Shown here: positions 3,720 to 64,000 of the stretch, in pieces | Numbering within the stretch: position 1 is the stretch's first letter | Layout: the number at the start of each line of letters is the position of its first letter | Origin: Ruminococcus sp. | GTDB lineage: Bacteria; Bacillota; Clostridia; Oscillospirales; Ruminococcaceae | Direction of reading: 5' to 3' | DNA length: 64,000 nt | NCBI GenBank assembly: GCA_017525915.1 | Contig: JAFXSC010000004.1 | Span: 1 to 64,000 of the forward strand | The notes under the pieces: generated by a model | What the model was told of the DNA's origin: nothing | The model's input: only the letters and a program-made list of their open reading frames with translations | Database searches by the model: none | Position numbers and translations under genes: made by a program

Positions 3720-4499
3720 TTATTCAAAATCCATAAAGTTCACAAGATCGCTTCCCATTACCGTCGAATAGGAAATGTACCATTTTCCGTCAAGCTGAAC
3801 GAATGCCGAGCTGTTTCCGGTAAAGCTCTTGCCGTTCGTCTGATTGGTGTAGAACATATACTTGCAGGTATACGCCTTTGTGAAGGCAGTACCGAGCTGC
3901 TTGTTGAATTCGAGCAGTTCTTCGCTGCTGACTTCCTTGATCCCGTCCTCCGGTATGCTGAAAGTCCATTCATTGCCGTCACCATCAGAATAGTAGTCCA
4001 TGATCTCCACAATATTGTCCATCGAAGCCTCGATAGCACTTATCACAGCGGCTCTGCGGAAGACCTTCTTCGGGTCCTTTCCGGAAAGCTCATCTCTGAC
4101 GAGTTCGCAGTAGCCCTCCATTTCGGCAGGGACGAACAGCGAATACACCTTTTCCGCATCGTGGTCTATGTAAGCCTGATAAAAGGCATTTGCAGCATCA
4201 GCGCATTCAGCCGGTTCAGTCTGCACCGCTGTTGTCACGGCAGTAGTAACTGTAGTTGAAGACGAAGCTGCCGCAGAAGTAGTAGCTGCCGTAGTGGCAA
4301 CAGTCTGCTCTGCCGTTGTTTTTGTGGTCGTCACCGTCTCAGATGAAGCGGCAATTGTATCGGTCTGCTGTGAAGCAGTTGTATTGGCCGCCGAAGTGGT
4401 CTCCGTTTCCGATGAGCTGCCGCCTTTCTTACCGCAGCCGGCAGAAAGCGCAAGCGTCACGGAGAGGAGCAGCCCTGCTGCCTTTTTTATCTTAATCAA
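3720..4499 (-). CDS. Predicted lipoprotein with Thr/Ser-rich linker
   Basis: The protein (about 259 residues) begins with a lipoprotein signal (IKKAAGLLLSVTLALSAGC, lipobox ending in SAGC), then a long Thr/Ser/Ala-rich linker (about residues 25-90) and a folded C-terminal domain of about 160 residues that resembles NTF2/DUF4878-like small domains only in general pattern. It should be anchored outside the membrane. I choose the TTG at 4499, whose first two bases after T overlap the upstream TGA (TTGA), with GAAGGA upstream; an ATG at 4520 in frame is the alternative. It is translationally coupled to the leucine-rich-repeat gene. Confidence 0.75.
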   Translation of the reverse strand: MIKIKKAAGLLLSVTLALSAGCGKKGGSSSETETTSAANTTASQQTDTIAASSETVTTTKTTAEQTVATTAATTSAAASSSTTVTTAVTTAVQTEPAECADAANAFYQAYIDHDAEKVYSLFVPAEMEGYCELVRDELSGKDPKKVFRRAAVISAIEASMDNIVEIMDYYSDGDGNEWTFSIPEDGIKEVSSEELLEFNKQLGTAFTKAYTCKYMFYTNQTNGKSFTGNSSAFVQLDGKWYISYSTVMGSDLVNFMDFE

Positions 4500-6253: not shown

Positions 6254-6379
6254 TTGTACGACCTCCTGATGCAATTATATAAAACAATGCTAAGATTATT
6301 ATACACTAACGAGGCGATACAGTCAACACAAATGCTTAAATTTGCCGCCTTGACAGCAAAGATTTGTTAGCTTTTAACA

Positions 6380-6414
6380 AAAAGCGCGGCTGATTTTATA
6401 CAGCCGCATTTTTC
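6380..6414 (-). terminator. Terminator of the pyr operon
   Basis: GCGGCTG pairs with CAGCCGC around an AT-rich loop (6386-6392 with 6401-6407). T runs flank both sides, so it may work in both directions; it lies directly after the carB stop. Confidence 0.85.
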
Positions 6415-6416
6415 GT

Positions 6417-9400: not shown

Positions 9401-9611
9401 GCGTGAGCGGTTCGATGTAGACCTTGTCCGCCATAGCCTTGTCTGTCATGATGGTAGCAGGGTTGGAGTTCACGAGAACGACCTCAAGTCCCTCCTGCTT
9501 CAGAGCGCGGCAAGCCTGTGTGCCGGCATAGTCGAATTCGGCAGCCTGTCCGATAACGATAGGACCGGAACCGATAACGAGTACCTTTTTTATATCACTT
9601 CTAAGCGGCAT
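6417..9611 (-). CDS. carB: Carbamoyl-phosphate synthase large subunit
   Basis: This 1064-residue subunit makes carbamoyl phosphate from ammonia, bicarbonate and two ATP, the first step of pyrimidine and arginine synthesis. The two homologous ATP-grasp halves are clear: SGPIVIGQAAEFDYAGTQA near the start and SGPIRIGQGIEFDYCSVH near residue 565, with ATP loops RPAFTLGGTGGG and RPSYVLGGQNM. The C-terminal 130 residues are the MGS-fold regulatory domain. Length is normal. The ATG at 9611 is one base past the carA stop and has GGAAAGGAG ten bases upstream; an overlapping GTG at 9620 sits too close to that site. Last gene of the PyrR-controlled operon. Confidence 0.98.
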   Translation of the reverse strand: MPLRSDIKKVLVIGSGPIVIGQAAEFDYAGTQACRALKQEGLEVVLVNSNPATIMTDKAMADKVYIEPLTLDVIKRIIEIEKPDSLLSTLGGQTGLTLSMQLAEEGFLESHNVKLLGADPETIHKAEDRQAFKDTMEKIGEPVIPSKVVETVEDAVDFAQVIHYPVIVRPAFTLGGTGGGIAQNEAELRDIATNGLRLSPITQILVEKCISGWKEIEFEVIRDAKGNVITVCSMENFDPVGVHTGDSIVIAPAVTLSDREYQMLRTAAINIIKELKVEGGCNCQFALHPTSFKYAVIEVNPRVSRSSALASKATGYPIAKTAAKIAIGYTLDEIINQVTGKTYACFEPALDYVVIKFPKWAFDKFVYAKRTLGTQMKATGEVMAIGTSFEQAMMKAVRSIELGMDTMNLKKLANLSTEEIREKLHVIDDERSFCVFEALKRGITPEEIHDITMIDNWFLYKLLNLVELEKWLADGTPLTEEKYDIAKQYGYLDSTIERISGQKCPKHKSAVYKMVDTCAGEFKAETPYFYSTFDEENEAKQFIERTNTGKKKVIVFGSGPIRIGQGIEFDYCSVHCVWTLKELGYEAVICNNNPETVSTDFDTGDRLYFDPLTKEDVQSIIETEQPYGVVVQFGGQTAIKLTRYLSDMGVRILGTSADMIDAAEDRERFDEVLEKCGIPRPAGHTVMNAEEALVAANDLGYPVLLRPSYVLGGQNMIIAHSDADVKEYMGIIMSHNIENPVLIDKYMMGTEVEVDAICDGEDFLIPGIMEHIERAGVHSGDSISIYPAQHLSERIKRIIVEYTRLLAKELNVIGLVNIQYVVYNHEVFVIEVNPRSSRTVPYISKVTGIPMVDIATKIMFGAKLRDMGYESGLYPAGDYVAVKVPVFSFEKLTDVDTMLGPEMKSTGECLGIGRNLEDALLKGLIAAGFDLKREGGVLLSVRDSDKRELLPIADKFEQMGFELYATSGTQSVLHRNMIAANLVRKISDGEPNVETLLDSGKIHYVISTSAKGRLPERDSVKMRRKSIERSICSLTAIDTAKSLVKVLESGRTINDVELVDITKI

Positions 9612-9612
9612 A

Positions 9613-10719
9613 TCAGTCACGCTCCTTTCCCATATTTTTTACAAATTCATCGAAAAGATACGATGTGTCCAGCGGTCCGCCGTGGGCTTCCGGGTGGAAC
9701 TGCACCGTAAATGCGTTGACTGAGGTATAGCGTATACCCTCGCAGGTCTTGTCGTTTGCATTGATGTGGGAAACGTGACCGACCGCCGGGTCGATGCTGT
9801 CCCCTACCACAGCATAGCCGTGGTTCTGGCTGGTAACATAGGTCAGTCCGCTCTCGATGTCGATAACAGGCTGATTTGCACCTCTGTGACCGTATTTCAG
9901 CTTCTCAGTCCTTCCGCCGTTGGCAAGCGCCATGAGCTGATGACCGAGACAGATACCGAATATCGGTATACCAAGCTTTTCAATTTCTTTTATATTTGCG
10001 ATTATCTCAACGTTTTCCGCCGGGTCTCCGGGGCCGTTCGAGAACATTATCCCGTCAGGCGCAAGTGCCTTCACCTGCTCCGCTGTGGTGTAAGCCGGAA
10101 CCACTACGACCTCGCAGCCGCGCTTCACAAGCTCCTGCCTGATATTGCGCTTGTAGCCGAAATCGAACAGCGCAACGCGGAACTTCTTTTCTTCCGGTTC
10201 ATAGGTGTGTTCCTCAGTGCCGGTAACATTCTTAACTGCGTCCCTGACCGTGAATGCGCGTATCTTTTCGAGCAGTTCGTCCTTCTTTGCGTATACGTCC
10301 TCAGTTGTTATTACTCCGTTCATAACGCCTGCTTCACGGATAGTACGGGTCAGGCGGCGTGTGTCGATATTGTGGATACCAACGATGTTATGCTCAGTCA
10401 GGAAATCGTTGATGTTGCCCTCAGAGCGGAAATTAGACGGAGCATTGCACCATTCGCGGACGATATAGCCCGTTACATAGGACTTTGCAGACTCACTGTC
10501 CTGCGAGTTCACACCGTAGTTTCCGATGAGCGGAAAAGTCTGGGTGACGATCTGTCCGTAGTAGCTGGGGTCGGTAAGAGTTTCCTGATAGCCGGTGAGT
10601 CCCGTGGTGAACACGACCTCGCCGATAACAGTACCCTTCGCGCCGAAGCTCCTGCCCTCAAAGACCTGCCCGTCAGCAAGCATAAGGTAAGCCTTTTCGC
10701 CTTGATTGAACAATGACAT
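9613..10719 (-). CDS. carA: Carbamoyl-phosphate synthase small subunit
   Basis: A 368-residue glutamine amidotransferase subunit that feeds ammonia to CarB. The N-terminal CarA domain (AYLMLADGQVFEGRSFGAKG) is followed by a class I amidotransferase domain with nucleophile Cys in FGICLGHQLMALA and the catalytic His-Glu in VQFHPEAHGGP. The start ATG at 10719 has AAAGGAATG upstream; the longer frame to 10770 adds residues without family likeness. It lies 75 bases after pyrF and one base before carB, within the same operon. Confidence 0.98.
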   Translation of the reverse strand: MSLFNQGEKAYLMLADGQVFEGRSFGAKGTVIGEVVFTTGLTGYQETLTDPSYYGQIVTQTFPLIGNYGVNSQDSESAKSYVTGYIVREWCNAPSNFRSEGNINDFLTEHNIVGIHNIDTRRLTRTIREAGVMNGVITTEDVYAKKDELLEKIRAFTVRDAVKNVTGTEEHTYEPEEKKFRVALFDFGYKRNIRQELVKRGCEVVVVPAYTTAEQVKALAPDGIMFSNGPGDPAENVEIIANIKEIEKLGIPIFGICLGHQLMALANGGRTEKLKYGHRGANQPVIDIESGLTYVTSQNHGYAVVGDSIDPAVGHVSHINANDKTCEGIRYTSVNAFTVQFHPEAHGGPLDTSYLFDEFVKNMGKERD

Positions 10720-10794
10720 TAGGATCATTCCTTTCGCAATATTCGTGATTATAACACTTCCGCACGCCATTGTACGGAAATGTGACTAACTTAT

Positions 10795-11721
10795 TCAGCC
10801 GAGGTTGATATACTGGCAGATATCGTCTCTCATTCTGATGACCTCGCGGCGTGCTGCCTTTGCGAAGTCTCTCTCATCGCAGCCTTCCTTCTTGTAAGCA
10901 CACATTACAGCGCGTGAGGAATTTACGATAGCGCCGAGTCCGTTGGCATCGAAACCGCCCTTTAGCCCCTCTGCACCTCCGCCCTGTGCACCGTAGCCAG
11001 GAACAAGGAACATGGTATGCGGAAGTCTCTGCCTGAGCTCTGTGAGCATCTCGGGATATGTTGCACCTACAACTGCTCCCACTCCGGAATAGCCGTACTT
11101 GCCGATGCTTTCCTCGCCCCACTTCTCGCACATATCGCCCATTGCTTCGTATATCGTGCGTCCGTCGGCAAGCTTCATGTCCTGCAACTCACCTGACGAA
11201 GGATTGGAGGTCTTTACGAGAACATAGATGCCCTTGTCGCGCTCGCCGCAAACTTTGAGCAGAGGAGCAATACCGTCCGTACCGAGGTAGCCGTTCACGG
11301 TAAGAGCGTCAGCGCCGAATGCCTCGACCTCGTTCTCGCCTATCATGGTTGCGCCGAGATGAGCGTTTGTGTAAGCCTCCATGGTCGCGCCGATATCGTT
11401 GCGTTTTCCGTCGGTGATAACGAACATACCGTTGAGCTTTGCGTAGCGGATAGTCCTTTCGAGCGTCTTGATGCCGTAATGGCCGTACATCTCATAGTAA
11501 GCAGCCTGCGGCTTGATAGCCGGGACGATATCGTGTATCTCATCTATAATAGCCTGATTGAAGGCGTATATAGCCTTTGCGGCAGCCTTCATGGTCCAGC
11601 CGTCATCGTCAAGATAGCGGCGCTGGATATACTCGGGAACATATTCAAGCTTCGGATCAAGTCCCACCACTGTGGGATTTTTCAGTTCGATGATCCTTTC
11701 GATAAGTCTGTCAAATGACAT
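10795..11721 (-). CDS. pyrF: Orotidine 5'-phosphate decarboxylase
   Basis: A 308-residue enzyme that converts OMP to UMP, the last step of de novo UMP synthesis. It belongs to the longer subfamily of PyrF (about 300 residues rather than 230). The catalytic DxKxxD-type motif appears as DGKRNDIGATM, and VGLDPKLEYVPEY at the N-terminus is typical. The ATG follows AGGAGG. It is 14 bases downstream of pyrC and translated in the same direction. The genes pyrB, pyrD and pyrE are not in the window. Confidence 0.97.
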   Translation of the reverse strand: MSFDRLIERIIELKNPTVVGLDPKLEYVPEYIQRRYLDDDGWTMKAAAKAIYAFNQAIIDEIHDIVPAIKPQAAYYEMYGHYGIKTLERTIRYAKLNGMFVITDGKRNDIGATMEAYTNAHLGATMIGENEVEAFGADALTVNGYLGTDGIAPLLKVCGERDKGIYVLVKTSNPSSGELQDMKLADGRTIYEAMGDMCEKWGEESIGKYGYSGVGAVVGATYPEMLTELRQRLPHTMFLVPGYGAQGGGAEGLKGGFDANGLGAIVNSSRAVMCAYKKEGCDERDFAKAARREVIRMRDDICQYINLG

Positions 11722-11735
11722 AGCAATTCCTCCTA

Positions 11736-13010
11736 TTAGTTATTTCTTATGTCGTATTTAATCTCACCCTTTGATATGGTCACGAGCGGTCTGCCTGTAA
11801 GGGTCATGCCCTTGAACACTGTATTATGTGACTTTGAGTGAAGTTTTTCCGGTTCAACAGTCCACTTCATGCCAATGTCCGCAATGACGAGATTGGCAGT
11901 CTTTCCGGGCTTTATCGCCGGGACTTCCAGGCCGAGTATCCTCCGCGGGTTCACGCACATCAGTTCAACTACCTTGTTCAGCGATATCTCGCCGGTATGG
12001 TAAAGTGCGGTGAGCGTCGCGGCAAGCGATGTCTCCAGTCCGACAACACCGTTCGGAGCCTTTTCAAAGTCAGCCTTTTCATTCGCAGCATGAGGTGCAT
12101 GGTCCGTGATTATGCAGTCGATAGTGCCGTCCTTTACAGCTTCGATTATCGCACGGACGTCAGCCGGAGTCCTGAGCGGCGGATTCATGCGGTAGTCTGC
12201 ATCGCGCTTCATAAGCAGCTCGTCAGTGAGCATAAAATAGTGCGGTGCAGTCTCGCAGGTGACTTTGACTCCTCTCGACTTCGCAAAGCGTATCATCGCC
12301 GCGCTGCCTTCGGTGCTGACATGACATATATGTATCCTTGCATCGACCGATGAGGCAAGTATCATCTCACGGGCTGTGATATAGTCCTCAGAGGCTCTGT
12401 CCATTCCCTTCACACCGAGGCGTTCGGATGTTTCGCCCTTGTTGATTATACCGCCGTTGATAATGCCGAGGTCCTCACAGTGGGAAGCAACGAGAAGTCC
12501 GTTCTCCTTCGAGAGTTCGAGTGCCTTCCGCATCATCTCCGCGCTCTCGACAGGTCTGCCGTCGTCGGAAATACATATACACCCGGCAGCCTTCAGTGCT
12601 TCATAGTCGCACAGACCGTCGCCTTTCATACCGCCGGTAATGCAGCCGACCGGATAGACCTCAACGCCGGTCCCCCTTGCCTTGTCGATGATGTATCTGA
12701 CAGTTTCTGGATTATCACAGGGCGGCTTGGTATTCGGCATGGCAAGCACACCGGTAACTCCTCCGGCAAGCGCTGCTGCACAGCCTGTGAGGACGTCCTC
12801 CTTGTGAGTGAAGCCGGGGTCGCGCAGATGAACGTGCATATCGAAAAGTGACGGCATGAGCACGAGATCAGTGCCGTCTATCATCTGATCCGCTGCTGCA
12901 TCAAGACCGATGCCGGTCTCTGCAATGACGCCGTTACTGATGAATACGTCAGTAACTGTATCCGTCTCCGCGTCAACTGCGCGGACGTTCCTGATAAGAA
13001 TTGATGACAT
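11736..13010 (-). CDS. pyrC: Dihydroorotase
   Basis: A 424-residue amidohydrolase that cyclises N-carbamoyl-aspartate to dihydroorotate. The metal-binding entry motif DMHVHLRDPGFTHKED near residue 57 is complete, as are the later HC (VASHCED) and HxxH-type (IHICHVST) segments and the DHAPH motif near residue 300. It is the type I form usual in Firmicutes. The ATG follows AGGAGGAAGT. It lies 13 bases after pyrR and 14 before pyrF. Confidence 0.97.
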   Translation of the reverse strand: MSSILIRNVRAVDAETDTVTDVFISNGVIAETGIGLDAAADQMIDGTDLVLMPSLFDMHVHLRDPGFTHKEDVLTGCAAALAGGVTGVLAMPNTKPPCDNPETVRYIIDKARGTGVEVYPVGCITGGMKGDGLCDYEALKAAGCICISDDGRPVESAEMMRKALELSKENGLLVASHCEDLGIINGGIINKGETSERLGVKGMDRASEDYITAREMILASSVDARIHICHVSTEGSAAMIRFAKSRGVKVTCETAPHYFMLTDELLMKRDADYRMNPPLRTPADVRAIIEAVKDGTIDCIITDHAPHAANEKADFEKAPNGVVGLETSLAATLTALYHTGEISLNKVVELMCVNPRRILGLEVPAIKPGKTANLVIADIGMKWTVEPEKLHSKSHNTVFKGMTLTGRPLVTISKGEIKYDIRNN

Positions 13011-13023
13011 ACTTCCTCCTTGT

Positions 13024-13533
13024 TCAGCCGAAAATGGCTACTCCGTCGCTGCCGTCTATCTCTTCTACGAAAACCTTCACGACCTCGCTGTGTGAAGTGG
13101 GAAGGTTCTTGCCGACATAATCCGGACGGATCGGGAGTTCCCTGTGTCCTCTGTCGATGAGAACGGCAAGCTGTACGGAACGCGGTCTGCCCCGCTTCAT
13201 GATAGCTTCAAGTGCAGCCCTGGCGCTCCTGCCTGTGAAAATAACATCGTCAACTATAATCACTTTCATGTCCTTTACTGAGAAAGGTATGTCCGTAAGC
13301 TCGTCGGTCCCTCCGGCGGCAACGTCATCGCGGTAAGGAGTGATATCAAGCTGACCGAACGGCACGCTGACGTTTTCCAGATCCGACAGCTTGTCAGCGA
13401 TTCGTTTTCCGATCGTCACTCCGCGCGAACGTATACCTATGACACAAAGCTCCTCAGCGCCCTTGTTGTGCTCGATTATCTCGTAGGATATCCTTGCGAT
13501 TGCACGCTGCATAGCCTTGTCGTCCATTATCAT
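13024..13533 (-). CDS. pyrR: Bifunctional pyr operon regulator / uracil phosphoribosyltransferase PyrR
   Basis: A 169-residue RNA-binding regulator that, with UMP, favours transcription termination in pyr leaders; it also has uracil phosphoribosyltransferase activity. The PRPP-binding motif VIIVDDVIFTGRSARAA and GIRSRGVTIGKRIADKL are diagnostic. I take the ATG at 13533 as start (the ATG at 13527 is also possible). The longer frame from a GTG at 13587 would begin inside the leader terminator and adds no family sequence. No strong ribosome binding site sits close to the ATG: GGAAGGAG lies 23 bases upstream and would fit a CTG start, so the start is the uncertain point. Confidence 0.95.
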   Translation of the reverse strand: MIMDDKAMQRAIARISYEIIEHNKGAEELCVIGIRSRGVTIGKRIADKLSDLENVSVPFGQLDITPYRDDVAAGGTDELTDIPFSVKDMKVIIVDDVIFTGRSARAALEAIMKRGRPRSVQLAVLIDRGHRELPIRPDYVGKNLPTSHSEVVKVFVEEIDGSDGVAIFG

Positions 13534-13570
13534 GCGTTTTTTTTCCAGAACGCCCACTCCTTCCGGCACA

Positions 13571-13604
13571 AAAATACCCGTCTGCACGTCGGCAGGCGGG
13601 TGAG
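13571..13604 (-). terminator. pyr leader attenuator terminator
   Basis: On the minus strand ACCCGCCTG pairs with CAGACGGGT (one C-A mismatch), followed by ATTTTT, between the PyrR-binding element and the pyrR start. Its place and form are those of the attenuator terminator in PyrR-controlled leaders. Confidence 0.8.
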
Positions 13605-13640
13605 CTTACAGTTATAGTTATAGCACAGCTATATCATAGT

Positions 13641-13675
13641 GCGTTCAGCTTCGCCTTGCCGACCTCACAGGATCG
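13641..13675 (-). promoter_or_regulatory. PyrR-binding RNA element (pyr anti-antiterminator)
   Basis: The leader reads ATCCTGTGAGGTCGGCAAGG on the minus strand, which matches the conserved PyrR-binding loop consensus (TCCNGNGAGGY...AAGG) known from Bacillus pyr leaders. It lies between the pyr promoter and the attenuator terminator. Binding of PyrR-UMP here should block the antiterminator and lower expression of pyrR-pyrC-pyrF-carA-carB. Confidence 0.88.
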
Positions 13676-13705
13676 AATTAAAGGACAACAACCATTGCTT
13701 TTAAT

Positions 13706-13734
13706 ATTATAGCACATTGTTTTGCATTTGTCCA
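13706..13734 (-). promoter_or_regulatory. pyr operon promoter
   Basis: TGGACA (13729-13734) and TATAAT (13706-13711), read on the minus strand, are separated by 17 bases. Transcription would begin near 13699, giving a leader of about 165 bases that holds the PyrR element and attenuator. Confidence 0.82.
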
Positions 13735-13849
13735 GTAGATTTGAAAATTTTTTTGGATTTTTAAAATGCAGGGATATTTACAATCAATTGAATATAATGT
13801 ATAATTGAGGTATAGTGATAAGATATCTGCAATGAAAGGAGGACTGAAT

Positions 13850-14578
13850 ATGCTGCATTACATATCGGAAATGCGCGGCGAACGTGCTGATATGATACGG
13901 CCTTTTCCTGTGCCTATCGTGATGAAAATGCTCTATGACATTGCTTCAGACCCCGAAAAGGCCGTGCTCTGCGATATGGTCGCAGGGTTTGCAAAATGCA
14001 GCAGGGAGCTTTTCACCTTGCCTCCGACAGAGCTTGCGGACCTCCTCGAAAACAACAGCCGCATTGCCGCAGCTCTCCAGCTTCTCATCGAGATTACCCA
14101 CGTCCATATGACCGAAGGCTGGGAGATATCCAAGGATTTTTCCGATATCGAAGCAGCAAAGCGGTACTTCATACACTACTTTCTGTTCCGTCCGGCTGAA
14201 CAGGTCGCAGCCGCTCCCCTCAGCGGCAGGAAGGAACTCATCGGCGGCGCTTACGTTTCCGGCAACGGCACGAGCTTCTCAACGCAGCTACCCGTGCGCC
14301 GTATTGTTCGGACCTGCATGGTCACAGACGCTCAGTATGTCACCATAGCGCACAATCATCCCGGCGGTCCTGCACTGCCTTCGGCTGAGGACGTACTCTC
14401 CACCATGAATCTTGCGGAAGTTCTGGATTCCTTCGGCATTAAGCTTTCCGACCATATCATAGTTGCCGGAACGCAGGCTTATTCAATGCGCCTCAGCGGA
14501 AAACACACAAATATATTCGGTGAAGACCCGTTTTACGAAAACAGCAGAAAGGAGATGACCTATGAAGAAAGACATTGA
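13850..14578 (+). CDS. RadC-like JAMM domain protein
   Basis: A 242-residue protein whose C-terminal half is the RadC/JAMM (MPN+) domain. The metal motif is intact: a Glu in ELIGGAYVSGNG near residue 130 and HNHPGGPALPSAED near residue 168, matching H-x-H-P-x6-S-x2-D. The N-terminal 110 residues do not look like the usual RadC helix-hairpin-helix region, so I would not call it RadC itself. The ATG at 13850 follows AAAGGAGG; an in-frame ATG at 13805 has no such site. It overlaps the cardiolipin synthase gene by 17 bases. Function of the family remains unclear. Confidence 0.83.
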   Translation: MLHYISEMRGERADMIRPFPVPIVMKMLYDIASDPEKAVLCDMVAGFAKCSRELFTLPPTELADLLENNSRIAAALQLLIEITHVHMTEGWEISKDFSDIEAAKRYFIHYFLFRPAEQVAAAPLSGRKELIGGAYVSGNGTSFSTQLPVRRIVRTCMVTDAQYVTIAHNHPGGPALPSAEDVLSTMNLAEVLDSFGIKLSDHIIVAGTQAYSMRLSGKHTNIFGEDPFYENSRKEMTYEERH

Positions 14579-56032: not shown

Positions 56033-56488
56033 TCAGCCCTCTATCTGCCGCGAAAGGAACTGCGCTGCCGCTGTGATAAGGCTCTTTTGCAGGTCAGTCA
56101 TCTCAGCCGCCTTTTCACTGCTGAGGAAGGTCACAGCACCCGAAACATCACCTGCCGTGATTATCGGAACAGCCGCGATCGCGGTGCGGTTCACGCCCTC
56201 CGCCGGGAAAAAGTTGTTGCAGTTTCCGTCGGGGCAGTAGTATTGTCCCCTGCTCTCCATGAGCTCCTCAAGCTGACCGGTAACGCGGCGCTCTGAAAAC
56301 TCCTTTTTCGGTACACCGGCGCAGGCAACAACGTGGTCCTTATCAAATATTACCACCGGACAGCCGGCGAGCTTGTGCATTATCTCCGCTACATAACCGG
56401 CATTTTCGCTCATTTCGCCTATCGCAGAATATTTGCGGAAAATGACTTCGCCTTCGCTGTTTGTGTATATCTCCAGCGGGTCGCCTTC
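56033..56488 (-). pseudogene. spoVT: spoVT, 3' part cut off by the integrated element
   Basis: SpoVT is a forespore regulator of the AbrB family with a C-terminal GAF-like domain. The codons here encode its last 151 residues: the end of the AbrB domain (EGDPLEIYTNSEGEVIFRKY) and the whole GAF-like domain to the typical end TAAAQFLSRQIEG. The first 28 or so residues (the usual MKATGIVRRIDDLGRVVIPK segment) are absent from the window and should lie at the far end of the element. The frame is intact, with no stops, and a terminator follows, which suggests recent or reversible interruption. Confidence 0.88.
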
Positions 56489-58210
56489 ACTGATAACATT
56501 GACACTGAGAATTTTGCCGGTACTTGTCGTAATTTCGGCAAATCGTGAAGCTGTTTCGGTTATCCCAGTGCCTTGCTTAAAATTTACGTCTTTCTCCTCA
56601 TCGCTGTACTCGGGTAGAGTTCCTGTTTTAAGCAGAGTATCAATATCAGGTCTGAGCTTGATGTCAACGTGTTCCTCATAGACTGTGATGCGCTCAATGA
56701 TGAAGTCAACGTCAACTTTGGAAAGCGTGTCCTTATTAATGATAGCATCGAACACTTCCATTACTGTCCTGGCTGTACGGTTTACGCTGACTATCATATT
56801 ATGCTTATCGGCTGCTAGCTGCATCTGATTTCGGAGACCTTCAAGCCGGAGAGTAAGCTCATCTATCTGCTCCGTATATATCTCTTCAAGCATTTCCTCG
56901 CGTTCAGGGTGCTTGGCGATATCCTTGACGTGCTGACGTGCAAGCATTTTTATCTCGGTGCGGGTGTCTTCCATTTGCTGATTCAGCACCTCGACAACAG
57001 ATTTGCTTGAAGATGTCTCATTGCGTTCCTTGTCGATAGACTCCTGCAGCTGTTCAAGCATAGCCTCTGAGTTGTCCCGAACTTTTTCAACGAATGAGCG
57101 GAGAAGTCCGTCAAGCATATCAACTCTTGTATGATGAGAGGTACAGCCTTTACTGCCTCGCTTGTGATATGTTCCGCAGCGGTAGGCAGGCGGCAGGTCT
57201 GGACGGCTCATAGCAAACATCGGACTTCCACAGTCGCCGCAGAAAAGATAGCCTGAGTAGATGTTATCATACTTCTTCACACCGCGGTAGTTGCTGTTCG
57301 TGCGGCGCTTCATCTGCTCCTGAACACTTGCAAACAGCTTATAGTCCACAATAGGAGCGTGGTTATTCTCGAAAACAATGTGGTCGGTCTCTTCGAGCTT
57401 CATATCAGAGCCGTTTATCTTCTTGCGGCGGTATTTGCCCTGCCTGAGAGTACCAATATAGAAATCATTTCGGAGTATATCGCTGACAGTGACTATGCTC
57501 CAGTCGCTCTTTCCGCGGAGTTTGCATTCCTCTCCTTTAGCCTCGCGGCGCTCCTTTTCAGCCATACGGGGCGTAGGAATATGCCGGTCAGTCAGATGAT
57601 TTGCAATGCGCTTGTAGCCCCAGCCCTCGCTGTACAGCCTGAATATCTCCCTGACAACTTCCGCAGCAGGCTCATCGACCTCAAACTGCATGAGCTTGCT
57701 GTTGGTCATAATATAACCGTAGGGAACGGCACAAATCCACTTGCCCTCCTCCTGCCGGCGTTTAACAACAGAACGGACTTTCTTCGAGGTGTCCGTAACA
57801 GGCATTTCATTGATAAGGAAGCGGAACTGTATCGCTGTCCAGTCATCGAAGGTCGGGTAGTCGATGCTGTCTCCGATAGAGATTATACGCATACCGGCAT
57901 CGCGCAGGTCTTCAAGCTCAACAAGTCCCTTGCTGTTGCGGCGGCTGAAACGTGAAAAATCCTTGATTATGAGGATATCGTATTCGTGCAGAAGCATCTT
58001 CTTCCGCAACTTTTGGTAACCTTCGCGCTGCTCAAAGGTGTAGCCAGAGCGGTCACGGTCTTCGTAGAAGTCAAGCTTCGCCGTCGGAAAGGTCTTGCCG
58101 ATATAGTCAGCAATTATCGCTTTCTGGTTCTCGATAGAGGTATTGTCGCGGTCAAGCTCCTCATCGACCGAGATTCGGCAATAGCCTGCTATCCTGAGTT
58201 TATCTTCCAT
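56033..58210 (-). CDS. Large serine recombinase fused in frame to the C-terminal part of SpoVT
   Basis: A 725-residue frame. Residues 1-570 are a complete large serine recombinase: resolvase domain with nucleophile Ser in YCRISVDEELDRDNTS, then RFSRRNSKGLVELEDL, a recombinase domain (FRLYSEGWGYKRIANHLT), a zinc ribbon (LFCGDCGSPMF...YRCGTYHKRGSKGC) and a coiled-coil motif. Its own tail ends near TSTGKILSVNVIS. The last 151 residues, from EGDPLEIYTNSEGEVI on, are SpoVT from about residue 29 to the end. This shows the element has integrated in spoVT, with the recombinase gene at the attachment junction. Start ATG at 58210 has GAGGGG upstream. Confidence 0.9.
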   Translation of the reverse strand: MEDKLRIAGYCRISVDEELDRDNTSIENQKAIIADYIGKTFPTAKLDFYEDRDRSGYTFEQREGYQKLRKKMLLHEYDILIIKDFSRFSRRNSKGLVELEDLRDAGMRIISIGDSIDYPTFDDWTAIQFRFLINEMPVTDTSKKVRSVVKRRQEEGKWICAVPYGYIMTNSKLMQFEVDEPAAEVVREIFRLYSEGWGYKRIANHLTDRHIPTPRMAEKERREAKGEECKLRGKSDWSIVTVSDILRNDFYIGTLRQGKYRRKKINGSDMKLEETDHIVFENNHAPIVDYKLFASVQEQMKRRTNSNYRGVKKYDNIYSGYLFCGDCGSPMFAMSRPDLPPAYRCGTYHKRGSKGCTSHHTRVDMLDGLLRSFVEKVRDNSEAMLEQLQESIDKERNETSSSKSVVEVLNQQMEDTRTEIKMLARQHVKDIAKHPEREEMLEEIYTEQIDELTLRLEGLRNQMQLAADKHNMIVSVNRTARTVMEVFDAIINKDTLSKVDVDFIIERITVYEEHVDIKLRPDIDTLLKTGTLPEYSDEEKDVNFKQGTGITETASRFAEITTSTGKILSVNVISEGDPLEIYTNSEGEVIFRKYSAIGEMSENAGYVAEIMHKLAGCPVVIFDKDHVVACAGVPKKEFSERRVTGQLEELMESRGQYYCPDGNCNNFFPAEGVNRTAIAAVPIITAGDVSGAVTFLSSEKAAEMTDLQKSLITAAAQFLSRQIEG

Positions 58211-58297
58211 AGTCAGCCCCTCTGCGTCAATGTTATTTAACACTTTCACTAATATTCTATCATCATTGTAACATATCAAATTACGCTTGTCAAGAAG

Positions 58298-58324
58298 AAA
58301 AAAGAGGTGCGCTTTACGCGCACC
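58298..58324 (-). terminator. Terminator of the small element gene
   Basis: On the minus strand GGTGCGC pairs with GCGCACC around GTAAA, followed by a T-rich run. It overlaps the stop of the small gene and lies upstream of the recombinase, which may therefore be expressed from its own promoter. Confidence 0.8.
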
Positions 58325-58523
58325 CCAGGTTGTTTTTAAGCAGACTCTCCGTACAACTGAGCAGATCGTCACTGCCTGACAGGAAGTACACGACCTTGCA
58401 CTTCTTGGCACCCATCTTTTCAAGGAACTGATGCGTCAGTTCTTTGCGGTCGTATTGCCGCTGTTCAGCATTTGTGAGCCAGACCTCAATGTATCCTTTG
58501 TCACGCTTGTCATAAATTTCCAA
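58314..58523 (-). CDS. Small element-borne protein, function unknown
   Basis: A 69-residue protein (begins MEIYDKRDKGYIEVWLTNAE) predicted alpha/beta, with two Cys at the C-terminal end (CTESLL...GCA). The start is TTG at 58523 after AAAGGGGGC. No family recognised. Placed between the ATPase and the recombinase on the same strand, it could assist recombination (an excision-direction factor would be expected near the recombinase), but there is no motif to support this. Confidence 0.65.
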   Translation of the reverse strand: MEIYDKRDKGYIEVWLTNAEQRQYDRKELTHQFLEKMGAKKCKVVYFLSGSDDLLSCTESLLKNNLGCA

Positions 58524-58636
58524 CGCATCCGCCCCCTTTCATTTTGATTCTGCCCGATTTGAGCAATGTTTATTCAGCCTTATGTCTGCTCATCGTAATT
58601 ATTGTCATTTGTGCACCGAAGAGCGTAACAACGTTA

Positions 58637-61600
58637 TCAACGGAGCGTGCCGATGTAGTTGTCAGGGATACCATCACTGGTGTCGCTGGCGTTATTATCA
58701 GCAGCAGGCTCAAATTCAACAGTCCTGCCCTTGAGTGTTTTTATAACATTTTCTCTGCGATAACGGCTCCAGAACGGTCCATCATCGAAGCAGTTACCCT
58801 TCTGAAGAGAATCAGCCTCATGCTTGTCACAGCCAAAACGATCAGCATAGCGAGCGAGATCATCACCTTTTGAGCGGTAGCCACGAACTCTTCCGCAGTT
58901 GCCGACTACCTTACCGAACGGAGTAGTCGGGTCAGGATAGGACTGAGAAGCGAGGAGCATTGTTACACCGTGTTTGCCACCCTTGCGGAGAAGGACATTT
59001 ACTGCGCCTTTTTCGTGAAGATAAAGGTCTTGCGCCTCATCGATAACTACGGTATACTTCTCGTAAGGGTGACACTGCTTGTAGCAGTAAAGACTTTCTA
59101 GCATGATGTCGATGATTTCAGAACCTTTCTCAACTCCGTCAGCACCAGTAGATATAACTATGATATGTTTACCCTGAGCCTTGGCAAATTCACCCCAGTT
59201 GTTCTTAGTCTGAGTCGTATCCCTGAGATCATCGAGAACAGCATCGATCTTGTAATGGAGCTTGCGATGCGTTTTGTCGCCTGATGGCTCCTCTTCATCG
59301 TGAGCATCATCCTCATTGTAAATGTACTTCTCGATATCGCTAGCGATAACGTCAGGATTGAACTTCATCTCCTTAAGAAGATCCTTAACAGCGTTCTTGA
59401 TTATCTGCTCCTCATAGCTACCGAGTGTTCTGCACATCATCGCAAATATTCTCGTCAGTCTGTCCTTTTTGTCCTTGTATCCCAGGCATCCACGCAGGTC
59501 AAGCAAATCAACCGGCAGTCCGTCATCGTAGACATTCCAAAAGGAGAAATATTTCTCCCTCTGTTCATTTCCAACATGCTTGTCGATTTCTGTCGGAGTA
59601 AATCCGCCGGTCTGATCGAAAATTATCACCGCATCAGCTCCCTCAAATGTTACCTTTTGGAGTGCTCTGTTAACAAGAGCAAAGGTCTTGCCTGAGCGAG
59701 TAGCTCCGAAGTAACCCTCGTGAAAGTTATCGTCCATATCCGGATTGAACACATATCCCGCGGCTCTTGTGCCGTTAGCATTGTAGAGTATCGGAATAAA
59801 TCCCTCGGGGTATTCACCGACTTTGAGCCAGTACTCATTATCAATGATATCATCAACATATGCCTTTGCCTCAGCATCCAGTATTTTTCTTGAGTATGAG
59901 AAGGCCTCGACATCTTCAAGAACACCTGCGTCAAACGCAACCTTCAGCTTGCGCTTGTTGGTGTGCTTGCCCTTGAGCAGGCCTTTTTCGTTAATATGTT
60001 TATTCATCTTTATAACACTCCTTGTATTTAATTTTGATATAATGACGTTTTTCACAACGTCCTCATCCATGTTGATAGATCTATCATTCTCCGCGATAAA
60101 TGCAGTATGACCATCATCAGAATAAAACGGAGGACCGTATTGCTTTGCTATCTTAAGTTCTCCGTTAAGGATAGCACTGCTTACTGCCGACTTGAAATCG
60201 CGGCAGATAGCATCACCCATCGTTGATTTCGATGTAGCCTCTGTTCTGAACCAGCGGATTATACCTTTAAAATCCGATTCTGTAACAATGCCCAGTCTCT
60301 TCAGGATATGTGCTGTGGCAAGTGTCATCAACATTGTGTCTGTAATATCAACATTGCTGAAACGACTGACTATGTCACGAGCAACTTTTATTCCGTCGCG
60401 CACATGCTGTCTTGCAGTATCGGGATTATTGTAGATATACTCCTTGAATGCATAATCAAACATACCCGATAAACGCTGTAAAACAGGCACATTCTTGGGG
60501 ACAATATCTTCGTTGCAGTTGATGTAGTATGCAGGGTAATCATCCGGGATACTTTCAGGTCTATCTGTGATGAACACTATGATCTTGCTAGTCTTATCCT
60601 CGGCGCCGTTCTCTCCTGTGATATCCCACATTACCTCTTTGAACGCATCCTTCAATTTATTGCCTTCCTCGAAGATGCCCGAATAAGAAAAGAGCACGGT
60701 AACATCATTGGCAGAAGCAAGCTCCTTTCTCACTTTTGTAATATGAGCTGTAAGCGCTTGTACAACCGTGGAGCTATAGTTCTTCCGCTTCGTAAGAGCG
60801 ATAACCGTTTCTTTCACGGCATCATTATTATACGAAATTGAAAAACCGCGATCCGGATGAAGTCCCTCTGCCCCGAACAGGGGCAGAAGAATAGTTTCAT
60901 CGCGCAATGTAGTTAAAAGTGCTGCTTCCAAGCAGTTTGGCAGAGCCTTACGATAAATTGCTACAGTATCCTTGAATGGCAGTTCATGTACAACCAGCTT
61001 GTGTTCTTTCACTTCCGTTGGGAATAGGTCTTCCAGACCAGGTATTACCGACTCAGCAGATATATATGTCGTTACGCAATTTGGAAGCGTAACACCTCCT
61101 GCGTGCTTGGGAATCGTCAGGAATTTCTTATTCGGACATTCACGGAGATCCCGCAAAAAGCTTTCAAAATGCCGTTTTACACTGACATTAATGCCCTTTC
61201 TTGCGAAGGTTGTCTGTAGGCGGAACTGTTCTTCAGTGATTTCTCCATTATGGAAAATTATTGGTCTATTCCAGCCTTTTAGGTTAACTACGATATCCCC
61301 GCATTTACCTTCCGCGGTTGGATTAGCTATCAACACCCGTGTTGCCGATTCCTTCCATACAAACTTGCGCTTGCCGCTTTGATTATTGAGCTCCTGATAT
61401 TCAAGGCTATAATGATTCTTTTCCAGAATACTCTCCTCATAGTGCGGGTCTGTTACCACTGAATCAGGAATAAAATCATCGGTGAACAACTCAACTCCAT
61501 TGAGTGTATACGTATCGGTGATTAGTGGAGATGAAGAGGATAACTCCATTCCCTCCTTCCGGATTCCATCAGTCTGAAGCTGCTTTAACATCTCAAGTTG

Positions 61601-61777
61601 GAATCCTTGCTTGCGAGCGTTAAAGAGCTCCTCTACCTTTGGCTTGGCAAGCTTATCTGCAAGCTCTTTAGTTTCTCTGTCATACTTCCCTTTGATAATA
61701 TCTTGGAGGTTATAATCACTTATTAAACAACCTACCATCTCCATACAAGACATATTATCGATTTCTTCAAAGTCCAT
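58637..61777 (-). CDS. Large element-borne ATPase with HerA/DUF87-like domain
   Basis: A 1046-residue protein. Residues 1-200 are unfamiliar; about 200-500 resemble the DUF927-type region seen in element-borne helicases (FLRDLRECPNKKFLTIPKHA), and 680-1030 form a HerA/VirB4/FtsK-like motor with Walker A GYFGATRSGKTFALV near residue 690 and Walker B YTVVIDEAQDLYLHE near 930. Such motors pump or unwind DNA. The start ATG at 61777 follows AAAAGGAG. A long leader lies upstream. It may serve in replication, transfer or defence of the element; the sequence alone does not tell. Confidence 0.8.
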   Translation of the reverse strand: MDFEEIDNMSCMEMVGCLISDYNLQDIIKGKYDRETKELADKLAKPKVEELFNARKQGFQLEMLKQLQTDGIRKEGMELSSSSPLITDTYTLNGVELFTDDFIPDSVVTDPHYEESILEKNHYSLEYQELNNQSGKRKFVWKESATRVLIANPTAEGKCGDIVVNLKGWNRPIIFHNGEITEEQFRLQTTFARKGINVSVKRHFESFLRDLRECPNKKFLTIPKHAGGVTLPNCVTTYISAESVIPGLEDLFPTEVKEHKLVVHELPFKDTVAIYRKALPNCLEAALLTTLRDETILLPLFGAEGLHPDRGFSISYNNDAVKETVIALTKRKNYSSTVVQALTAHITKVRKELASANDVTVLFSYSGIFEEGNKLKDAFKEVMWDITGENGAEDKTSKIIVFITDRPESIPDDYPAYYINCNEDIVPKNVPVLQRLSGMFDYAFKEYIYNNPDTARQHVRDGIKVARDIVSRFSNVDITDTMLMTLATAHILKRLGIVTESDFKGIIRWFRTEATSKSTMGDAICRDFKSAVSSAILNGELKIAKQYGPPFYSDDGHTAFIAENDRSINMDEDVVKNVIISKLNTRSVIKMNKHINEKGLLKGKHTNKRKLKVAFDAGVLEDVEAFSYSRKILDAEAKAYVDDIIDNEYWLKVGEYPEGFIPILYNANGTRAAGYVFNPDMDDNFHEGYFGATRSGKTFALVNRALQKVTFEGADAVIIFDQTGGFTPTEIDKHVGNEQREKYFSFWNVYDDGLPVDLLDLRGCLGYKDKKDRLTRIFAMMCRTLGSYEEQIIKNAVKDLLKEMKFNPDVIASDIEKYIYNEDDAHDEEEPSGDKTHRKLHYKIDAVLDDLRDTTQTKNNWGEFAKAQGKHIIVISTGADGVEKGSEIIDIMLESLYCYKQCHPYEKYTVVIDEAQDLYLHEKGAVNVLLRKGGKHGVTMLLASQSYPDPTTPFGKVVGNCGRVRGYRSKGDDLARYADRFGCDKHEADSLQKGNCFDDGPFWSRYRRENVIKTLKGRTVEFEPAADNNASDTSDGIPDNYIGTLR

Positions 61778-61999
61778 AATACACACTCCTTTTCATTAAT
61801 TAATATTTTTGTGAGTTTCTGAAGGAGCCCGGTTATACTCCCTTACTCCTCCTCGTCAAGGAACTCAAGAGCCTGACGACTGCCTGTGATATAAAATCAG
61901 GGATTGGCAGCCTTGAATTGATAGTAGCCAGCTTAGTTTACCGCTGTTTACTAGCAGCCTTGTTCCTTACAAGGAGCAGGGATGGTATCCCCGGCTTCT

Positions 62000-62023
62000 C
62001 TATAGAATCCGTAGAACCATCAT
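62000..62023 (-). CDS. Candidate leader peptide, 7 codons (MMVLRIL)
   Basis: Two ATG codons follow AGGAG at six bases, then five codons and a TAG. Stem-forming sequence follows at once. Short ORFs with a good ribosome binding site in such leaders can control downstream genes by ribosome stalling or attenuation; here this is a suggestion only. Confidence 0.35.
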   Translation of the reverse strand: MMVLRIL

Positions 62024-62070
62024 TAATCACTCCTGCCCTTGATGTATTGACCTATTTCAGGTGTGCCTAT

Positions 62071-62099
62071 ATTATACTACAAATATGAATCTTAATGAA
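62071..62099 (-). promoter_or_regulatory. Possible promoter of the ATPase leader transcript
   Basis: TATAAT (62071-62076, minus strand) lies 17 bases after TTCATT (62094-62099). The -10 is perfect, the -35 is weak. Confidence 0.5.
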
Positions 62100-62137
62100 G
62101 GAAACAACTTTTCTCCCTCTTAAGCGCGATATAAAGA

Positions 62138-62169
62138 GAAAAAAGCACCATGTGGCATTCACATGGTGC
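62138..62169 (-). terminator. Terminator of the ImmA-type gene
   Basis: GCACCATGTG pairs perfectly with CACATGGTGC around AATGC on the minus strand, followed by TTTTTTC, about 60 bases after the stop of the upstream gene. Confidence 0.92.
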
Positions 62170-62231
62170 GTAAATACGTTATTTTTATAATTGAAACAAG
62201 AAAACTAATTTCTCGGCAAATCTACCAAAGT

Positions 62232-64000
62232 TCAGTCTTCATTTTTTCTTTTTTTATACCTTATCGGAGGAAGGCCATATCCTGATAATATCCTGTCCCA
62301 TTCGCTCAATGGAAGGTCTGTATTTTCAAGTAGGGTTTCATATGCAATCCTTTTCATACCAATATCTGGTATGCCACCGACTGATTTCTCAATTAGAAAT
62401 TCACTGACCTCTGGCCCTGTTTCGCATGCAAGACAAATCATCATTACTTTTTCAATTGTGTCAGGAACCTCCCCGTTACGATAGTTTTGAATAGTTCTAT
62501 TATCACAACCAAGAAAATCTGCTAAGTCTTTATTCTTAAGCTTAACTTCTTTGGAATCCTTATTTTTCAGCTCTACTTTATCCATTATATATACTAACGC
62601 TTCTGAAAACTCTTTTATTCCAGCTGATATCATTTCATCGTGTAATTTTTTATCTATTTTTCTTTTTTCGATTTCTTCGTTAATGATTTCTAATTTATTT
62701 TTATTTTTACTACCTTCAAATTTAAGCTCCTTGTTGTATTCTATCAAATGATTTGGTATTGCATAACATAAGTATGCTTGAGTATTAAGAATACTTGAAT
62801 CATATTTGCTATACAGCAAAAATATCAGGCAGCATTCCTCAGCATGTTCCTTAGCATAGTCTGAAAGTTCATAGTTAATATCACCGTTTATTATGGAATA
62901 CTTTATATACTTGGCTTTATTAACACAAACTACGCAGCCTGTATACACGCAGATCTTTTCATTTATAAGATCTGCAAAATCTGTGTTTTCACTCAGCAGC
63001 CGTTCATAACTCTCATGATCTATAACAAATGTCTCATTCTCTTTCAATGTCCCATGAGCAAATGTGAATGCGGGATATTCGCATCCGTCAACAATTACAA
63101 ATGTACCATCAGCGTAATCATAATCCAACTGACGGAGACGCTTTTTCATTATCTCCGTCGGAACATTAAAGGCCCAGTGAAGCTTATAAATCATATTCTC
63201 GTAATAGTTTCCGTCATGAGGAATACTGCTGTTGATCACATGATGTATCTCGTTAATACTGTTCTCGTATTCATTAATAGCTTCTTCCACAAGGTACTTC
63301 GGCATAGCTACACGTATAGCAAGTTCATTTGCTTGCCATTCAGCATACCAGCGAGCCTTTTCTTTAAGCGACATATTATCATCAAGAATGATAGGAGCCG
63401 AAGTACATTCCATAACATTATATGTGTCATCAAGGAACTGTAATAGCTTCATATAATCACGATGTATCTCCCAATGAACAAGTTCGTGTGCAGCGGTTAT
63501 TATGTCACCTCCGTCTATTCTATTTCTATAATAATCCACATTCAGGAGTATTGTATTTGCTGGTATTTCGTAATTAGGATGCGGCGTATATGGATCATTA
63601 ATATTGTATATAGTCGCTTTAGACTTTTCAAAGCGTATCTGACCTAATACATTTTGGCCAAGATCCGCTGGCCACATATGCATATTATCGGTTCTTTTGT
63701 ATTTTTCTTTGATTTTTACTGGATCAAATCTATATTTGTGCTCTTCGTTCTTTTTTACCAAGGCATATAATTGCGAATATACCTTATCAGCTTCTTCTTC
63801 AAGTTTATCAACTGTGATATCAGGAAGTCCGAACATAGATGTTACAGTTTCAGGAATTAGTGATTCTTGAGTACATTCTTCGACACCAAGAACGTACAGA
63901 TCAGAAAAACGCTTTGACACATTACCTGTCAGCATTACATTATAATAGTATACACCTATGCTATTGTTGTCTGAATCGGATTCTTCACATGAGATCCCGA
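62232..64000 (-). CDS. ImmA/IrrE-type metalloprotease with C-terminal HTH, partial
   Basis: At least 589 codons are open to the window edge. A zinc protease domain is visible (ITAAHELVHWEIHRDY with HExxH as HELVH, and the later WYAEWQANELAIRVAMP that supplies the third ligand), followed by a middle region with Cys pairs and a C-terminal XRE-like helix-turn-helix (LADFLGCDNRTIQNYRNGEV). ImmA-type proteases cut the phage-like repressor of an integrative element and so trigger excision; here sensor, protease and HTH are in one chain. The first ATG seen (63935) has no ribosome binding site and the frame continues upstream without a stop, so the real start is beyond 64000. Confidence 0.8.
   Translation of the reverse strand, partial: GISCEESDSDNNSIGVYYYNVMLTGNVSKRFSDLYVLGVEECTQESLIPETVTSMFGLPDITVDKLEEEADKVYSQLYALVKKNEEHKYRFDPVKIKEKYKRTDNMHMWPADLGQNVLGQIRFEKSKATIYNINDPYTPHPNYEIPANTILLNVDYYRNRIDGGDIITAAHELVHWEIHRDYMKLLQFLDDTYNVMECTSAPIILDDNMSLKEKARWYAEWQANELAIRVAMPKYLVEEAINEYENSINEIHHVINSSIPHDGNYYENMIYKLHWAFNVPTEIMKKRLRQLDYDYADGTFVIVDGCEYPAFTFAHGTLKENETFVIDHESYERLLSENTDFADLINEKICVYTGCVVCVNKAKYIKYSIINGDINYELSDYAKEHAEECCLIFLLYSKYDSSILNTQAYLCYAIPNHLIEYNKELKFEGSKNKNKLEIINEEIEKRKIDKKLHDEMISAGIKEFSEALVYIMDKVELKNKDSKEVKLKNKDLADFLGCDNRTIQNYRNGEVPDTIEKVMMICLACETGPEVSEFLIEKSVGGIPDIGMKRIAYETLLENTDLPLSEWDRILSGYGLPPIRYKKRKNED

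Follow-up and report, generated by a model that had tools for sequence, protein, structure and literature searches.

A mobile and very probably reversible element that interrupts spoVT in Ruminococcus and exchanges protein ends with it

Introduction

Why should the gene of a DNA recombinase run, without a stop codon, into the second half of a sporulation regulator? The question is raised by the window that we analyse here, positions 1 to 64,000 of contig JAFXSC010000004.1 of the Ruminococcus sp. assembly GCA_017525915.1 (64,000 nucleotides; genome G000 and contig C41 below), in which the reading frame of a large serine recombinase continues into the 3' half of spoVT. The original prediction, made from the letters of the window alone, took this join for one side of a skin-like element (the kind that splits sigK and other sporulation genes) whose excision would restore spoVT, and named a dead spoVT or a functional recombinase-SpoVT fusion as alternatives. 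Comparing the junction across related genomes, we find that spoVT is truly and repeatedly interrupted by a mobile element, very probably reversibly, and that protein ends are swapped in frame in the process.

Results

The recombinase frame continues into the C-terminal half of SpoVT

The minus-strand open reading frame (ORF) at 56033-58423 encodes a large serine recombinase that reads stop-free into SpoVT, which confirms the open frame first noticed in the window. From the recombinase ATG at 58210 the chimera comprises 725 amino acids plus stop (56033..58210, minus strand). Pfam places Resolvase at residues 7-158, Recombinase at 182-303, Zn_ribbon_recom at 318-368 and SpoVT_C at 599-724 (E 1.6e-33); with the long helices at 363-491 of an AlphaFold model, this is the layout of large serine recombinases, in which Resolvase, Recombinase and zinc-ribbon domains are followed by a coiled coil. 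The spore_V_T model TIGR02851 aligns over its positions 27 to 180, below the full-length cut-off as expected for half a protein, and sequence matches in the PDB are to Bacillus subtilis SpoVT (2w1t, residues 572-724) and the SPbeta recombinase (9dxh, residues 7-422).

The chimera can be divided into a conserved recombinase core (residues 1-530; 56621..58210, minus strand), a variable linker (residues 531-574) that reaches to the crossover, and the GAF-like C-terminal half of SpoVT, codons 32-180, on the host side of the junction attR (56036..56482, minus strand; PF15714, TIGR02851, PDB 2w1t). In the AlphaFold model nearly all of residues 531-602 score below 50 in the predicted local distance difference test (pLDDT), and the SpoVT part at 611-700 has block means of 66-84. 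The join falls at the GA of codon 32 (56481-56482), and the first estimate of some 28 missing SpoVT residues was close, the count being about 31 codons. Because the same junction recurs in 32 of 105 genomes of the genus, the split of spoVT, with its C-terminal half fused to a recombinase, is real and far from chance.

The exchange probably falls at codon 32 of spoVT

At attL the order is SpoVT codons 1-31, core, element; at attR it is element, core, SpoVT. The dinucleotide at which serine recombinases exchange strands has to be the same in both sites, and base differences can bracket the crossover only where host and element agree in that dinucleotide. The run of identity between attL and attR is GACCC in G000 and GGCGA in genome G011. 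Because GA is the only dinucleotide common to both, the first two bases of codon 32 (56481..56482, minus strand) are the likely crossover point and the centre of attP. In G007, where attB is also present, the exchange falls within GGCGACCCCT. GA is identical in 22 of 23 genomes, the exception being G096, which has a missing base.

Reconstruction of attP from 22 genomes gives a dyad centred on GA, as is typical of large serine recombinases: 381 of 550 positions pair, whereas shifting the centre by 1 to 4 bases leaves no more than 192 and 1000 shuffles gave a mean of 146 (maximum 176), bearing in mind that the genomes are related and the positions not independent. The dyad was not used in placing the crossover. 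One half of it is the element arm of attR in the window (56483..56507, minus strand). At one locus (L246, 4001-6136) the att arm before the core is gone by an in-frame deletion and the recombinase-SpoVT fusion is still open; this is possibly a trapped element.

The missing half of SpoVT lies on another contig

The N-terminal half of SpoVT in G000, MKATGIVRRIDDLGRVVIPKEIRRTMRIREGDP, is found at C31:47063, where SpoVT runs up to residue 33 and is followed by 28 residues of other sequence. It is the single match to the AbrB/MazE-type family in a whole-genome search, which found no intact spoVT in the assembly. Such a fragment had been foreseen, at the right end of the window contig; it exists, on C31 instead, and no second element end was found on C41 from the window to the contig end at 74697. 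A complete spoVT elsewhere together with no N-terminal fragment, the combination named beforehand as telling against an element, is thus the opposite of what was found in the assembly. If there was one insertion, the ends are at least about 75 kb apart (18.2 kb on C41 plus 56.8 kb on C31). A gene-order comparison aimed at placing C31 next to C41 matched C31 genes to both element and host-flank contexts: those right of the fragment are common to the interior of the 54-kb element of G011 and to the host flanks of G007 and G064.

The same interruption recurs across genera

In our genus sample of 125 genomes the SpoVT C-terminus is found in 105 and an N-terminal match in 99. Uninterrupted relatives, whose comparison had been proposed as a check, make up 71 of the 105; another 31 are interrupted, one (G007) is both, and two (G094, G100) are undecided, the contig ending at the core or just past it. 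Put differently, a full N-terminus stands directly before the C-terminus in 72 genomes and a recombinase junction in 32, with G007 in both groups. Full-length recombinases in frame account for 23 of the 32 junctions (the SpoVT part of G007 being cut by a contig end), and five more are in frame and cut by a contig end (G023, G025, G040, G042, G085). The SpoVT N-terminal fragment is present in 24 of the 32 interrupted genomes, so that both halves are there as in skin-like elements. The two ends share a contig and strand in G001, G008, G011 and G017, which bound elements of about 18, 46, 54 and 8 kb, and in nine genomes of the family, one of them a single-contig genome. With about 8 to 54 kb between the ends in these 4 genus and 9 family genomes, the fusion is not simply a joined gene with no neighbouring element.

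The distribution is wider than the genus and takes in many Clostridia of gut and rumen. Recombinase matches at E 1e-120 or better occur in 27 of 396 genomes of the family sample (20 of 126 genera; 3 of the genomes belong to the genus), and 25 of these 27 close relatives are fused in frame to SpoVT. So are 70 of 80 named relatives, two of them cut by a contig end; these are the best 80 of 477, and the named, genus and family sets overlap. Hosts include R. flavefaciens ATCC 19208, 007c, FD-1 and YRD2003, R. bicirculans 80/3 and R. albus KH2T6, and also Anaerotruncus massiliensis AT3, Flavonifractor An100 and a Lachnospiraceae bacterium. Among the 10 named loci without an in-frame fusion are an attP-type join (L226, taken to be the contig of G094), three loci where a SpoVT C-terminus adjoins a broken frame (L253, L254, L270), a recombinase that has its own tail and lies 2.9 kb from an intact spoVT (L272), other sequence after the core (L257) and a locus cut by a contig end (L273). 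A close recombinase relative also sits at another site (L239, 4001-5900), where there is a repeated half-arm but no SpoVT; the spoVT of that genome is uninterrupted. In R. bicirculans 80/3 the fused recombinase is on the secondary chromosome (L237, chromosome II, 4001-8061), with a second, distant recombinase just downstream on the other strand.

A near-match search of plasmids with the chimeric gene gave no match, and none of 323 phage records matching the recombinase protein reached 60% identity. Of two human-faecal phage records examined, one is fused to SpoVT and the other ends before the core. Viral contigs contain 19 recombinase relatives, 4 of them close; three of these four are fused to SpoVT, and the remaining one stops at the core.

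Movement of the element between species, with varied cargo

Over 231 pairs, recombinase and SpoVT identities are unrelated (Spearman -0.03). In the six closest pairs the synonymous divergence (dS) of the recombinase is 0.05-0.18 and that of the SpoVT C-terminal half ranges from 0.56 to saturation; for G045 and G073 the values are 0.05 and 1.68. Because recombinase dS is low while SpoVT dS is high, the comparison indicates that the element moves between species that share a conserved site. Conservation of both halves as proof of selection after insertion was considered and rejected: the identities are unrelated and insertions can be young.

Cargo, read by eye in three elements, consists of polysaccharide genes in G017, a helicase and a defence-like set with a mobilisation-like gene in G094, and a giant surface protein in G001. 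The G094 region (L184, G094:C12, reverse complement 5849-13850) carries, by eye, an AbiH-type defence gene and large helicase-like, helix-turn-helix and mobilisation-like genes. What recurs is the recombinase and a small upstream ORF. Of the initial skin-like reading, the serine-recombinase element in spoVT therefore stands, and the fixed developmental switch gives way to a horizontally mobile family.

Empty and occupied sites point to reversibility

Would excision give back a gene? When the flanks are joined at the core, they form an open full-length spoVT in 21 of 22 genomes, as in skin-like elements, in which excision restores an open gene. In G007 an uninterrupted spoVT lies on a 294-kb contig, another contig starts with attL and another ends with attR; the flanks that attB has in common with attL and attR show no mismatch (94 of 94 and 158 of 158 bases). 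In G094 an attP-type join is found at the end of a contig that also carries attL. G098, G100 and the viral contig L346 stop at the core, which is where contigs would be expected to break if the assembly graph forks there. The earlier claims that excision would restore the gene and that the state is reversible thus look sound: the halves join to full length, an intact allele is present in G007, whose one assembly holds empty and occupied site, and G094 has the attP-type join. We hold the interruption to be very probably reversible, and a reversible, mobile interruption of spoVT to be well supported.

Integration exchanges the C-termini of recombinase and SpoVT

The sequence past the core at attL is open in the SpoVT frame, mostly for 24-36 residues beyond proline 33, and encodes a recurrent tail peptide of the type SLTSLTQExxFCNAMRNIAERLHI. 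Beyond the dyad arm the ratio of nonsynonymous to synonymous polymorphism (pN/pS) of this tail is 0.26 in frame (68 close pairs, 26 genomes), or 0.27 in 11 non-overlapping pairs. The other forward frames give 1.9 and 1.4; one reverse frame, which shares third positions, gives 0.37. Because pN/pS is low in the SpoVT frame, the tail is very likely translated and kept.

The recombinase gene contains the reconstructed attP, in frame with spoVT and roughly 25-35 codons ahead of the recombinase stop. Since the natural place of the tail is the recombinase C-terminus in the circle, integration trades the C-termini of recombinase and SpoVT, keeping both in frame. Linker length, from recombinase residue 530 to the core, ranges between 27 and 84 residues, and even so the 70 of 80 named loci keep the frame; this frame is common to tail and SpoVT, and its upkeep alone cannot say which product matters. 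A mobile element family with a fixed spoVT site and a swap of the C-terminal tail is, taken jointly, almost certain.

Other features of the window element

Upstream of the recombinase, on the minus strand, lies a vegetative-type promoter (TTGACA-17-TACAAT, 58265..58293) behind a terminator-like hairpin with a T run (58298..58324, minus strand, read by eye), which stands between the recombinase and a small conserved ORF of 69 amino acids (58314..58523, minus strand), a candidate recombination directionality factor (RDF). In the 150 bases before 69 distinct recombinases a near-consensus vegetative promoter with one mismatch occurs in 20 of the 69, compared with 2 of 345 shuffles, and it sits about 53 bases before the recombinase start in most of 22 rows examined. 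By these motifs, the recombinase promoter is of vegetative type.

A small ORF precedes the recombinase, mostly by 105-240 bases, in 68 of 103 loci; at least 600 bases of upstream sequence are available in 94 of those 103. It has no convincing family match, its weak Pfam and PHROG matches lying below any useful level, and no fold match in PDB or BFVD reached E 0.001. A paralogue lies beside a small serine resolvase (G000:C31:64586-65568), and the small ORF is thus not limited to this recombinase.

Further upstream are two cargo genes, both on the minus strand. The first encodes 1049 amino acids (58637..61786), ATPase-like by eye, with no Pfam or NCBIfam match; its homologues adjoin the recombinase in some related elements. 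The second (62232..64000, continuing to C41:64268) has IrrE/metalloprotease-like and regulator-like parts, PF06114 being below the cut-off.

Discussion

A proposed cycle

The explanation that we think likely as a whole is a mobile spoVT element with swap and reversal. The element family would use codon 32 of spoVT as a dedicated attB. Recombination of attP with attB would insert the element, the recombinase trading its conserved tail for the GAF half of SpoVT and the AbrB-type N-terminus of SpoVT, cut at residue 32, taking on the recombinase tail; SpoVT would be off in the integrated state. The reverse reaction would restore spoVT exactly and return the tail to the recombinase. The tailed recombinase of the circle may be the integrating form, and the SpoVT-tailed form may excise, assisted by a directionality factor that could be the small upstream protein or a different one. 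Once the element is out, the host could make SpoVT, which Clostridioides difficile needs to finish its spores.

Our confidence differs among the parts of this cycle. That excision is tied to sporulation comes close to an even chance. That the swapped tail controls the direction of recombination is a tentative idea, and rather unlikely. A shade less likely again is the specific form of it in which the swap is a control device, the circle form with its own tail integrating and the borrowed SpoVT sensor domain holding the integrated recombinase back, or licensing excision once the cell enters the state to which SpoVT ordinarily responds.

Several observations weigh against the proposed cycle. The two ends in G000 are on separate contigs, C41 and C31, and a rearrangement is possible there because C31 genes are common to both the G011 element and host flanks. 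G007 is known from its assembly and could be two strains in one culture. The attP join of G094 is at a contig end, its left half is one base off the attL of that contig, and it may be another copy; patterns for attP, the circle form, matched in only 1 of 125 genus genomes, and, fitted as the pattern was to one arm type, in 0 of 394 genomes of the order and no viral contig. The recombinase frame is broken in 4 of the 32 junctions (G062, G074, G096, G098), the joined gene of G096 is one base short, and the N-terminal fragment was not found in 8 of the 32 interrupted genomes, G025 having a 22-residue match at a contig end. The element is inverted in 2 of 80 named loci (L262, 1-2548; L267, 4001-5859), and 7 of the 71 uninterrupted genomes (G033, G061, G068, G099, G101, G104, G122) have separate N-terminal fragments that simple excision does not explain. 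The structural model of the chimera is weak overall (mean pLDDT 59.8), and the fusion may be in frame simply as a side effect of the reading frame of the tail.

The irregular loci have features of their own. In the inverted L262 and L267 the SpoVT N-terminus, in reverse complement, abuts the recombinase end; another inverted insertion, G258:C11:55593-68387, has the SpoVT C-terminus about 12.6 kb off on the far side. In G122 (L168, G122:C27, 3130-16963) the intact spoVT is preceded, at a distance of 13.3 kb, by an N-terminal fragment. Roughly 150-180 bases of promoter region, together with the N-terminus, occur twice there in nearly identical copies, which looks as though the gene had been rebuilt beside the element. 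The fragments of G068, G099 and G104 are also upstream of the intact gene, without promoter identity of that kind. Multiple N-terminal fragments occur in G104 (L170, G104:C22), at G215:C12:4435 and 11961, and at G452:C25:5899 and 26511, which suggests successive insertions at a hotspot.

Host sporulation and the alternatives

R. bromii is reported to sporulate (PMC5814915). SpoIVA is found in 122 of the 125 genus genomes, with 120 matches over the cut-off. Of the 32 interrupted genomes 30 have it, the exceptions being G025 and G064. The sigG model TIGR02850 has matches in 125 of 125 genomes, none over its cut-off, for which reason we do not use them as proof of sporulation. In C. difficile, sigma F and sigma G are reported to control spoVT in the forespore, and heat-resistant spores were not obtained from a mutant (PMC3789822). 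A strain with an interrupted spoVT should therefore have to excise the element, or find some other route, to complete its spores.

A first alternative is that an ordinary mobile element uses spoVT as attB by happenstance, SpoVT being lost, the strains non-sporulating and excision a rare chance event. Horizontal spread and the many kinds of cargo fit this, as do the broken junctions and stray fragments of some genomes. SpoIVA, on the other hand, is kept in nearly all interrupted genomes, G007 has the intact form beside the integrated one, and the halves join undamaged in all but one of the genomes compared, though young insertions would explain that too. We regard this alternative as a real possibility that falls somewhat short of an even chance.

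The second is a programmed, skin-like switch, in which the host has adopted the element and excises it in sporulation to turn spoVT on in time. The target is a sporulation gene, both halves and SpoIVA are mostly retained, and precedents exist in sigK, spsM, spoVFB, gerE and yabG (PMC10747680); moreover, 31 of the 32 interrupted genomes have no second intact spoVT, and sporulation would therefore need excision. The vegetative-type recombinase promoter, the movement between species, the 71 of 105 genomes without the element at the site and the cargo that differs among the elements examined speak against it. So does the compartment. The genes spsM and spoVFB are mother-cell genes. Likewise, sigK and gerE are reported as mother-cell genes and yabG as SigK-regulated (PMC10747680). 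In such mother-cell genes excision harms no descendant, whereas excision in a forespore gene would be inherited. A programmed switch is thus possible and, to us, doubtful.

A third alternative is that the recombinase-SpoVT fusion is a working regulator that replaces SpoVT. Its frame is kept despite the wide range of linker lengths, and at L246 the fusion was retained when the att arm was lost by in-frame deletion; one in three deletions is in frame by chance, however, the tail in the circle depends on this frame as well, and the AbrB-type DNA-binding half is absent from the fusion. This is improbable, and the functional fusion that the original prediction set apart as an alternative need not be a separate case, the in-frame swap being a property of the family. 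An assembly chimera or sequencing artefact, which the two contigs of G000 might recall, can practically be dismissed given the same junction in many assemblies, including the single-contig G307 and R. bicirculans 80/3, and a dyad centred on that junction.

Comparison with known systems

The nearest structural relatives of the mobile spoVT element are the sporulation gene-intervening elements skin (sigK), SPbeta (spsM), vfbin (spoVFB), gin (gerE) and yin (yabG), with which it shares a large serine recombinase, insertion in a sporulation gene and rejoinable halves. Like yin, for which integrated and excised forms in one culture are reported (PMC10747680), it appears to have both forms side by side; like gin, it has dyad att sites (PMC5595907); and its vegetative-type promoter sequence suggests a likeness to the C. 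difficile skin, reported to have a constitutive recombinase with control elsewhere (PMC5025042). Unlike these elements, it targets the forespore gene spoVT, occurs in many genera with varied cargo, and has its recombinase fused in frame to the target gene with the tail swapped. It works as they do and has their structural features, the regulatory ones being putative, and we do not file it as a proven skin-type switch.

A recombination target inside the integrase gene that is changed on integration recalls the archaeal 'suicidal' tyrosine integrases (SSV1, pTN3, pT26-2), which a review calls exclusive to Archaea (PMC8371274). The conserved in-frame tail beyond the crossover puts attP inside the integrase gene here too. 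The catalytic part is not split, in contrast: all catalytic domains are on one side and only the short tail leaves, so that a bacterial serine recombinase would keep its catalytic core whole and gain a host domain.

For function, the nearest idea is the engineered C-terminal integrase-RDF fusions (phiC31 Int-gp3, Bxb1 Int-gp47), in which a flexibly linked C-terminal domain is reported to alter the reaction performed (PMC5737554). Here, unlike there, the C-terminal domain would be supplied by a host gene and exchanged by the reaction itself, its effect on direction being putative. Clusters of diverse recombinases that share one target site inside a coding gene are described in a survey of large serine recombinases (PMC10083194); the word spoVT is absent from the main text of that survey, whose supplementary site tables may list such sites. 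Among top-ranked open-licence papers, we found none that describes a spoVT-interrupting swap by its title or the start of its abstract. Integration-dependent immunity of mycobacteriophages such as BPs is also similar as described, attP lying in a phage gene and integration changing the protein. In BPs the altered part is reportedly the C-terminus of the repressor, and the host is said to supply no sensor domain.

Implications

This is a bacterial serine recombinase whose protein sequence depends on its integration state, which bears on how serine integrases choose direction. If the swap does act as a control device, the element would read the host's sporulation decision via a domain borrowed from the very gene that it interrupts, and would be a natural counterpart of the engineered integrase-directionality-factor fusions. 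With a forespore regulator as the recurrent target, one has to ask how the spore comes to inherit the element or to get it back. For Ruminococcus of gut and rumen, the interruption suggests a concrete reason why the ability to sporulate may vary between strains.

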